Shown here: one piece after another, positions 45,929-47,881 of the stretch
Position numbering within the stretch: position 1 is the first letter of the stretch
Layout: each line of letters starts with the position of its first letter
Origin: Hymenobacter sp. BRD128
GTDB taxonomy: Bacteria; Bacteroidota; Bacteroidia; Cytophagales; Hymenobacteraceae
Assembly (NCBI RefSeq): GCF_013256625.1
Contig: NZ_CP053908.1
Span: 372,001-436,000 of the forward strand
Length of the DNA: 64,000 bases
Direction of reading: 5' to 3'
Translations under genes and position numbers: made by a program
Notes under the pieces: generated by a model
What the model was told of the DNA's origin: nothing
The model's database searches: none
Seen by the model: only the letters and a program-made list of their open reading frames with translations

Positions 45929-46372
45929 CTATTTAACCCGCGTCCAGGTCTGCGACTTGCCGATGAGCGAGAAGCCGATGTAGCCTTTTACCTCCATTGT
46001 GTTAGCCGATTCCATCTTCATGTAGCACGAGTAGGTTTTGCCGCTTTCGGGGTCGTATATTTTGCCGTTATCCCACTTGTTATCATCATCATAGCTAAAG
46101 CCTTGCATGAATATCAGGCCCAGGCGCGGGCGGCTGCGCAGCTTGGGGTCGGGGTTTTGGCTGTCCGTTTTGGGCTTGCCGGTGGCCGGGTCGTTGGGCA
46201 CGGTCAGGGTCACGATTTTACCGCACAGCTTATCGCCGCACTTATAAATCTCGAAGGTGGCTTTTTTCTCAGCGTTGGTCCAGATACCGAGCGGCGACAG
46301 CGTTTGGGCGTGGGCTGCGGTGCCGGCCACGCCCAGCCACAGGGCGAGCAGAAAGAGGAGAGACTTATGCAT
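45929..46372 (-). CDS. DUF2147 domain-containing secreted protein
   Basis: 147 residues: signal peptide ending at AAHAQ (~23), then the DUF2147 beta-barrel-like domain with GIWTNAEKKATFEIYKCG, KLCGKIVTL, MQGFSYDDDNKWDNGKIYDP, GKTYSCYMKM and KGYIGFSLIGKSQTWTR. The family is periplasmic or extracytoplasmic and lipocalin-like, of unknown ligand; it is widespread in Bacteroidota and Proteobacteria. Two conserved Cys (CGDKLC) may form a disulfide. It is single-gene, with its own terminator. Confidence 0.92.
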   Translation of the reverse strand: MHKSLLFLLALWLGVAGTAAHAQTLSPLGIWTNAEKKATFEIYKCGDKLCGKIVTLTVPNDPATGKPKTDSQNPDPKLRSRPRLGLIFMQGFSYDDDNKWDNGKIYDPESGKTYSCYMKMESANTMEVKGYIGFSLIGKSQTWTRVK

Positions 46373-46738
46373 CTTGCGACGGTGAAGAAGTAGTGAAGGG
46401 TGGATGAGAAAGGAAATCTACGGGAAAAAGAGTGCTAAACCGGGAAAGGCAATTATACGGCCATTTTTAGAAAGCCCGCGCGGGCGGCGACCCCAGAGGG
46501 CTAGCCGGCCAGCGTCGCAAAAAATGAAAAGGAACGAAAAACTAATGCGCTTGACTATCAGGAATATGCTAAAAATGCTGGCTCCGACGCCCTAAAATAT
46601 CTGGGAAAGCATTGAACCTCGGCGGCGGCAATTAACTTTAACCCTCAGTAGCGAGTGCTACGGCCCCGGCCAAGCCGCCCTAAGTTGCTGGGAAGCGCGG
46701 CCGAGGTTATGTGGAACCATAAAGAAAGGAGGTACAAA

Positions 46739-46810
46739 ATGTCTAGTAGTCCCAACCAAATCCTGCCGAGCCTGTCCAATGTAGTACGCTTCACCGCCGT
46801 ACTCGCCTAA
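46739..46810 (+). CDS. 23-codon small ORF with extended Shine-Dalgarno
   Basis: It encodes MSSSPNQILPSLSN followed by VVRFTAVLA. The ATG is preceded by AGAAAGGAGGT (46725-46735), complementary over 11 bases to the usual 16S rRNA 3' end and far stronger than other starts here. Codons 11-14 form one arm of a long stem with 46855-46865, so translation would remodel the surrounding RNA. It could be a leader peptide, a small protein, or a chance frame. No homologue is recognised. Confidence 0.4.
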   Translation: MSSSPNQILPSLSNVVRFTAVLA

Positions 46811-46924
46811 ACACACAGCTCGGCGGAGGGCGCTACGGTAGCGTGGCCCCCTTTCGTTGGACAGGTCTTACTGTGAGACGCCGGCGCTGTACCCCAGCGT
46901 TGCCGCTCGGTAAGATTTGAAGGA

Positions 46925-47881
46925 TTAGATGCCCGGCCTGGCCCGATGGCGCGCACTAGCGCGCCGGGGCCGGCCGGGCATCGTTTTTTTAGTGCTTGTT
47001 GACTTTTGCCGAGCTAGCGGCGCTGGCTTTTTAGGTAAAGCTTTGCGCGTAATAGATACTGATTTTTTAGTTGTAGTGGTTTCAGTAGCAACGTGCCGAC
47101 GGGCAGCAAGCGTAGCCTTAGCGGTAGTTTGTGGGTGTAGTCGCGGCCGCGTGGGCAAGGGTACTACCCTAGCAGGCAATGACACGGCGGGCGCGAGGGC
47201 CGCTTCAGGGGCCATTGGTGGCAACGCAGCGACGGCGCCGGCCGGATGCGCCAAGGCCGATGCAGAAGTAGCGGGCCGGCCAGCCGCAAAGGTCGTGGCG
47301 CTAGCCTTCCCGCCGCCATCGAGCACGCGCCGTACCTGCATAAAGCGGCGCTCATAGCCCGAGTTTTCGAGCTGGCTGATTTTCACGCCCGACTCGCGCC
47401 GGGCCGACGAGGCGTGCACAAAGCGCAGCGGCGTTTCGCCCAGGGCCGAGATGACGATGCCCGCGTGGCCGGCCGTGGTGCTGCCTTCAGCCGTGCCGGT
47501 AAAGACTACAATATCGCCGGGCTGGGCCTGGGCGCGGGGCACCGGCCGGCCGGCCTCGATGAGCAGGGCCGTGGCGTGCGGCGTAGCCACGCCAAAGTGC
47601 CCGAACACGTAGGTAATAAAGCCTGAGCAGTCGAAGCCCGTGGCTGGGCTAGTACCAGCCCACACGTAGGGCGTGCCTAGCTGGCGCAGGGCAAGGCGCA
47701 CAATGCTGTCGCGCCGGGCCGGGCCGGGCCGCGCCGGGCTAGCCGAGCGCCCCGCCACCAGCACGATGGGCGCGGCTGCCTCGCGGCTAACGCCGGGTGC
47801 CAGCGTTGACTTGAGCACTAAAAACCGAAGCCCAAGCAAGAGCAGCAGTAAACTGCCAAAAATCAACCAGATAGTACGCAT
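46925..47881 (-). CDS. NlpC/P60 (C40) peptidase with low-complexity tail
   Basis: 318 residues. A membrane anchor (~4-22) precedes a C40 domain (~58-170): Cys85 in GFDCSGF, His139 in TAGHAGIV and His156 in FVHAS, the full catalytic set. These enzymes cut gamma-D-Glu-diamino acid bonds in peptidoglycan peptides. The remaining ~150 residues are Ala/Pro/Thr/Lys-rich and end in a basic Arg/Ala tail. The last ~22 codons coincide with the plus-strand terminator, so the tail sequence may be shaped by that element. Likely periplasmic, inner-membrane tethered. Confidence 0.9.
   Translation of the reverse strand: MRTIWLIFGSLLLLLLGLRFLVLKSTLAPGVSREAAAPIVLVAGRSASPARPGPARRDSIVRLALRQLGTPYVWAGTSPATGFDCSGFITYVFGHFGVATPHATALLIEAGRPVPRAQAQPGDIVVFTGTAEGSTTAGHAGIVISALGETPLRFVHASSARRESGVKISQLENSGYERRFMQVRRVLDGGGKASATTFAAGRPATSASALAHPAGAVAALPPMAPEAALAPAVSLPARVVPLPTRPRLHPQTTAKATLAARRHVATETTTTKKSVSITRKALPKKPAPLARQKSTSTKKTMPGRPRRASARHRARPGI
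46928..46990 (+). terminator. Strong intrinsic terminator, overlapping the C40 peptidase 3' end
   Basis: GATGCCCGGCC/GGCCGGGCATC outer arms (46928-46938 and 46972-46982) enclose a CGCGC/GCGCG inner stem and are followed by GTTTTTTT on the plus strand. There is no T run on the minus side. It therefore belongs to a plus-strand transcript, yet it lies inside the last ~22 codons of the convergent gene. Confidence 0.85.

Follow-up and report, generated by a model that had tools for sequence, protein, structure and literature searches.

What is encoded between two minus-strand genes of Hymenobacter sp. BRD128, in DNA that folds too well for a spacer? A preliminary description of the window (the whole stretch of 64,000 nucleotides analysed, C1:372001-436000 of a 4.88-Mb genome, from whose first base all positions are counted) had proposed an undescribed structured RNA of ~385 nt on the plus strand, lying between the two genes and ending in a strong terminator with seven T. 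The organisation of the fold is confirmed, as the 386-nt stretch has a folding energy of -182.8 kcal/mol (z -6.44) and 0 of 100 shuffles are equally stable. The terminator likewise stands, in the form of a GC hairpin and its T run (Table 1). The two minus-strand ORFs do flank the RNA, and the end of the right-hand ORF (46925-47881) lies within it. The last codons of this NlpC/P60-like ORF are antisense to the RNA terminator (46925-46990), and because of this overlap the hairpin may stop transcription from both directions. From sequence comparison we hold, with moderate confidence, that the locus is a free-standing structured small mRNA gene of ~345 nt, probably read by ribosomes that lack bS21 and thus have a free anti-Shine-Dalgarno.

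Table 1. Positions of the features of the RNA gene in the window
Feature	Position	Strand	Description
Promoter	46611..46640	+	ATTG -N18- TAACTTTA; presumably Bacteroidota-type -33/-7 boxes
Predicted transcript	46646..46990	+	~345 nt; start placed from the promoter, end from the terminator
Hairpin P1	46648..46661	+	GUAGC-GAGU-GCUAC
Helix P2 enclosing P3	46664..46706	+	P2 46664-46671 / 46699-46706; P3 46678-46680 / 46690-46692
Extended Shine-Dalgarno	46723..46733	+	AGAAAGGAGGU; perfect 11-nt complement of the 16S rRNA 3' tail
Small ORF	46739..46810	+	23 codons + TAA: MSSSPNQILPSLSNVVRFTAVLA
Long ORF/3' UTR hairpin	46748..46926	+	H1 + H2
H1	46748-46752 / 46922-46926	+	AGUCC/GGAUU
H2	46758-46771 / 46905-46918	+	codons 7-11 with GCUCGGUAAGAUUU
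3' box	46905..46926	+	GCUCGGUAAGAUUUGAAGGAUU; conserved in two alignments, the rows of one picked by AGGATT
Intrinsic terminator	46928..46990	+	GC hairpin + seven T (T run 46984-46990)

Boundaries, distribution and 5' helices

The promoter was assigned by applying what we take to be the Bacteroidota consensus for -33/-7 boxes. Among 172 distinct upstream regions, the pattern TKTG-N17-21-TWnnTTTR occurs in 128, with exactly the N18 spacing in 121, compared to a mean of 1.15/172 and a maximum of 4/172 in 20 rounds of shuffling. The window itself is one of the 44 non-matching regions, its first box ATTG making it a near miss. The boxes put the start near 46646 and hence predict a transcript shorter than the ~385 nt of the preliminary description. 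Farther upstream, some 50 bases ahead of the first promoter box, lies a short dyad, TGACTATCA (46552-46560). Of the 17 genus rows listed (61 aligned), 14 carry it as TGANNNTCA, and it may be the binding site of a regulator acting on the RNA gene.

Within the genus, both neighbours are retained on the minus strand: homologues of what is presumably a small secreted-protein gene at 60 of 61 loci, and homologues of the presumed NlpC/P60-like gene at 59 of 61. The homologue of the window's downstream gene is convergent to the RNA at 59/61 loci of the genus and, elsewhere in the family, at 8/8 (g6), 4/4 (g4), 13/13 (g5), 3/5 (g2), and 0/1 (g3) loci. Outside the family, either of the window's neighbours is found in 0 of 8 order-level loci. 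This arrangement across loci makes an independent RNA gene, rather than a leader, the most likely interpretation.

Conservation extends well beyond the one strain from which the preliminary description was drawn. A 481-nt DNA query has exactly one match in each of the 61 genus genomes, and a 366-nt query (BLAST) matches 157 of 204 family genomes, covering all six genera. One genome (G099; listed contamination 5%) shows two equally good matches on the same contig, C110, at ~13 kb and ~178 kb. At the level of the order, two covariance models, R1 and R2, match 87 and 88 of 390 genomes, respectively. Of the 88 genomes matched by R2, 79 belong to the family and include BLAST misses (e.g., G133, G143, and G147), and no family member is found among the 20 R2 misses listed, a list that leaves 282 further misses out. 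Of 395 genomes of the class, R2 matches 7; four belong to the genus, and the other three lie outside the order and have weak E-values of 2.8e-5 to 6.0e-4. Two of these three (L284 and L286) were read and display, by eye, P1/P2-like hairpins, the Shine-Dalgarno (SD), and an ORF of ~20 codons, with a less clear 3' box.

In addition, the pattern GAAAGGRGGTN{2,5}TGTCTARTCC, which excludes the usual form of the window's genus with its extra codon, retrieves 90 stretches from the genome_contigs collection. Their titles name Pontibacter, Rufibacter, Adhaeribacter, Chryseolinea, Ohtaekwangia, Rhodocytophaga, Cesiribacter, Nafulsella, and Anditalea, and we take most of them to be Cytophagales genera or families. 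Odd labels among the pattern matches are "uncultured Bacteroides," "uncultured Chitinophaga," and a SAR324 MAG, the contig of the last (L263) being perhaps a binning error. The searches covered the genus, the family, the order, the class Bacteroidia, and this exact-pattern scan of contigs; the plasmid collection held no similar DNA.

The 5' domain was assessed in alignment A1, comprising 46 rows from six genera picked by hand for diversity. Hairpin P1, paired in 61 of 61 genus members, has 98.3% of its cells paired in A1, with both-side changes at 2 of its 5 pairs. Both-side changes are also seen at all 6 counted pairs of P2 and at 2 of the 3 pairs of P3. Drawn as eight pairs from the window, P2 has 83.8% of its cells paired across the genus, with complete pairing in 7 of 61 members, the window sequence itself carrying one C-A mismatch. 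For P1-P3 together, 93.4% of A1 cells are paired, versus a shuffle mean of 79.8% and 34-51% for slid partners. A tree-aware pair test gives E<0.05 for 7 of the 14 pairs, and the single best score among all column pairs of A1 belongs to a structure pair. In tree simulations that keep the changes per column, 0 of 1,000 match the observed pairing, and double changes number 19 in the data versus at most 9. These statistics, obtained with our own scripts and not with R-scape, demonstrate helices covarying beyond phylogenetic expectation and mark the locus as a structured RNA gene.

The reading frame and its pairing partners

Absent from the preliminary description is an extended SD followed by a 23-codon ORF, whose start ATG (46739) lies five bases past the SD. 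The 16S tail GGATCACCTCCTTTCT occurs at 3 places in the window's own genome, each after a 16S end, and AGAAAGGAGGU complements the tail ACCTCCTTTCT at these three ends without a mismatch. The tail reads ACCTCCTTTCT in all loci where the 16S end was found (17 loci of 7 genomes). With RNAduplex, the predicted pairing with the 16S tail is -17.7 kcal/mol for the window RNA and -6.4 kcal/mol for the rpsU of the same genome. The former falls below the published limit for very strong pairing (below -13 kcal/mol, computed with another program).

The extended SD is invariant in 46 of 46 A1 rows, which were not chosen by SD motif, and altered in three other homologues read (L145, L156, and L159). L156 was on this account excluded from the duplex, ORF-length, promoter, neighbour, openness, and stem-pairing counts; by eye, its ORF is open for 22 codons. 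In L145, from a Rhodocytophaga-like genome (G207), the SD core reads GGGGG in place of GGAGG. Two patterns did not find the 16S end of this one-contig genome, where a matching change in the 16S tail would, if true, represent strong intermolecular covariation. The pattern AGAAAGGAGGTN{1,8}TG has its sole match in the window's own genome at this locus and matches in 204 of 204 family genomes. Such matches are no proof of presence, since G151 and G180 carry the RNA with a changed SD and match elsewhere, and since the backwards control also matches (0-4 times per strand, 9 times in one genome). The SD has a predicted mean unpaired probability of 0.47 versus 0.34 for codons 3-18 and is the more open of the two in 68 of 94 cases, a difference that lends weak support to its exposure.

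The ORF is intact in 109 of 109 loci (43 distinct, with repeats of one genome among the 109) and likewise in each of 80 loci at greater distance. The latter were found by a pattern that fixes the SD, the start, and codons 2-4, so that only the remaining ORF is independent evidence. ORF length stays within 18-23 codons in every one of the 118 distinct sequences, drawn from 207 loci (mean, 22.1; sd, 1.2), versus 4-42 codons in frame +1 (sd, 7.8), and the range is also 18-23 codons in 22 clusters differing at at least 16 of 54 bases. Differences per pair at codon positions 1/2/3 are 1.03/0.37/3.24 within the genus (41 distinct sequences); the divergent clusters show a weak bias of 2.92/3.40/4.07. 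The frame length and the bias in the genus indicate that the frame is under selection as protein-coding sequence, and they speak against the noncoding character that the preliminary description implied. The peptides carry charged and polar residues, by eye without a clear membrane segment, and their C-terminal half is highly variable between families. Five of them were searched against Pfam and NCBIfam, without a match. The window's genus usually has one codon more than its relatives. Within the genus, GTAC/GTAC, GTCC/GGAC, and GTTC/GAAC alternate in ORF codons 16-22 (46784-46802), where by eye an apical hairpin seems to be preserved even though this entails V/G/E substitutions in the encoded peptide.

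Much of the ORF is predicted to pair with a 3' box that directly precedes the terminator, beginning at codon 4 (codon 3 where the extra codon is absent). This pairing was examined in alignment A2, comprising 40 rows from across the order, picked by hand for diversity. A2 rows were required to carry AGGATT 90-197 nt past the start, and the constancy of the H1 3' arm is therefore partly by construction. We observe 90.7% of A2 cells paired, versus 26-51% for slid partners, and both-side changes at 13 of 14 H2 pairs. In 94 distinct pairs (197 loci, 11 of 208 having been dropped from the comparison), the duplex of an ORF with its own 3' arm averages -19.7 kcal/mol, versus -13.1 kcal/mol when partners are swapped between diverged loci and -8.6 kcal/mol when they are shuffled. 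Swaps equalling the own partner make up a median of 4.4% (mean, 11.6%), and there are none for 18 of the 94.

None of 1,000 A2 tree simulations reaches the observed pairing, and double changes number 9 versus at most 8. By this measure both domains of the RNA exceed the simulations. At the level of individual pairs, 0 of 19 reach E<0.05 in the tree-aware test of A2, and no structure pair is among the 25 top-scoring column pairs. We regard the predicted helix between ORF and 3' UTR as well supported as a whole and its single pairs as unproven. A G-U pair of H1, present in 31 of 40 A2 rows, fits the plus strand only, because it would be A-C on the other strand. The locus would add a new RNA family whose small ORF contains a stretch serving both as codons and as part of a conserved helix.

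A possible role of ribosomes with a free 16S tail

One study (PMC9976891) reports that the 16S tail is held in Bacteroidia by bS21, bS18, and bS6, and that Flavobacterium johnsoniae ribosomes without bS21 favour mRNAs with an extended SD. The known case is rpsU, marked by pairing below -13 kcal/mol with the program used there, and ~20% of Cytophagales, mainly Cyclobacteriaceae, fit the rpsU criteria of the same study. A second source lists one Hymenobacter species among SD-scarce organisms (PMC10783764). The RNA described here resembles the F. johnsoniae rpsU mRNA in its extended SD pairing with the 16S tail, at a similar predicted strength and in an SD-poor phylum. It differs in encoding a short, unrelated peptide of 23 aa instead of bS21, and in being a stand-alone gene with conserved 5' helices and a hairpin between ORF and 3' UTR.

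The bS21 gene of the window's own genome is located apart from this RNA, at C1:3356054-3356212, and its product keeps Tyr54, which is present in 7 of 7 bS21 sequences read, this one included. The rpsU of this genome lacks a strong SD, and the SD of the RNA is as strong as that of Flavobacterium rpsU. Of 28 genomes (16 with a model match and 12 without), 27 have no extracted rpsU upstream pairing better than -7.3 kcal/mol. The idea that the RNA substitutes for a missing rpsU SD is weakened, because a strong rpsU SD is likewise missing from the 12 genomes examined in which no model match occurs, which argues against a simple exchange of roles. In the one exception, G867 from outside the order, the upstream of a bS21 paralogue (L316) pairs with the 16S tail at -18.6 kcal/mol; this genome has three bS21 matches, one of which (L314) is uninformative.

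Given the rpsU/bS21 data and the pairing strengths, the simplest mechanism would be a small mRNA preferred by 30S subunits with a free tail. Ordinary Bacteroidota ribosomes, their anti-SD held by bS21/bS18/bS6, would initiate poorly on this RNA because its coding sequence is folded. A 30S subunit with a free tail, either lacking bS21 or immature, could capture it; translation of the ORF would then open the hairpin, and the product may be the peptide, the released 3' arm, or the two together. More tentatively, as a possibility to which we give less than even weight, the gene may be a core RNA-peptide gene of the Cytophagales, reaching further into Bacteroidia, that senses specialised ribosomes: engagement of its extended SD would be restricted to 30S subunits whose anti-SD is liberated, and their passage would unlock the hairpin and release a regulatory peptide or RNA arm. 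If true, bS21-lacking ribosomes would regulate more than the making of bS21. The published use of the free 16S tail in Bacteroidia is rpsU autoregulation (PMC9976891), and here the extended SD belongs to a different gene. What else bS21-lacking ribosomes translate becomes a directly testable question.

Known RNAs and rival explanations

Open-access literature, surveyed by title and the start of the abstract, yielded nothing describing this RNA, and the part available of a 2010 list of 104 structured RNAs (PMC2864571) has no Bacteroidetes entry that we equate with it. An Rfam scan (4,227 models) of window positions 46000-47600 gives two weak matches, none at gathering score, the best being to a miRNA model (E 0.029; 23.8 bits versus a gathering score of 70). 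Six homologous loci likewise give two weak matches each, none at gathering score, and RNase P, SRP, and 6S RNAs have no match at gathering score in the Rfam scans of the region. The RNA resembles tmRNA in its size of ~350 nt and in the short reading frame inside a structured RNA, and differs in starting from its own SD and start codon. ARAGORN detects no tRNA or tmRNA in the window, and the genome's only tmRNA (RF00023) match above cut-off lies elsewhere (C1:359631-360002; 119.1 bits), this RNA being near C1:418650; tmRNA was rejected on these grounds. Together with the conservation, the covariation, and the promoter spacing, these negative results uphold the central proposal of the preliminary description, an undescribed plus-strand RNA with its own terminator.

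Dual-function small RNAs such as SgrS/SgrT combine a small ORF with a structured RNA under its own promoter and terminator. This RNA does the same, and differs in that its ORF appears to be tied up in hairpin pairing with the 3' UTR. The type I toxin mRNAs hok and aapA are folded mRNAs with a small ORF and long-range pairing, and all three traits recur in this stand-alone, highly folded RNA. A structured type I toxin-antitoxin mRNA with 5'-3' pairing and a small toxic peptide is nonetheless very unlikely here. Type I modules have a patchy spread, whereas this RNA occurs once per genome in all 61 genus genomes tested and keeps its location in the family; no antitoxin is known for it, and the charged and polar peptides are not evidently hydrophobic. 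A leader-like ORF followed by a terminator could also suggest a cis-regulatory leader (riboswitch, attenuator, or uORF) of the downstream gene. We rejected cis-regulation of this neighbour and consider it extremely improbable, since the gene lies on the minus strand in the window, its homologue is convergent in most family loci, including 59 of 61 in the genus, and neither neighbour accompanies the RNA in the 8 order loci outside the family.

The noncoding fold of the preliminary description, nested around the nine-pair stem AACCTCGGC/GCCGAGGTT (46615-46623 / 46700-46708), draws on a strong predicted single-sequence fold, and the stem does exist in the window. Across the genus, however, just one of 61 members forms all nine pairs, and 64.2% of cells are paired; the 5' arm sits between the promoter boxes (46611-46640), hence upstream of the predicted start, and the 3' arm overlaps, and would compete with, the covarying P2. 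The stem was rejected as a core on these grounds, and a noncoding RNA built around it merits almost no credence. Just as little falls to the idea that the RNA imitates the 30S platform (16S helices 23/24) and binds a ribosomal protein. It was suggested by AGGATTAGAT, common to the RNA and the 16S 790 loop, and was rejected because a same-strand match of at least 10 nt arises in 9 of 40 shuffles; the AGAT extension is, moreover, absent from the loci of other genera that were read. A more serious contender, although we judge it unlikely, is a mainly regulatory RNA whose extended SD would trap free 30S subunits by their 16S tail, acting as a sensor, decoy, or store, with translation only opening or clearing the hairpin and the peptide a by-product. 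The near invariance of the nucleotides of the SD and first codons in A1, the constraint of pairing on much of the ORF, the variable C-termini of the peptides, and the elaborate helices beyond the ORF would all agree with it. In favour of a translated small mRNA, the length of the ORF is kept in 118 of 118 sequences and differences in the genus gather at codon position 3, neither of which a pure decoy would need.
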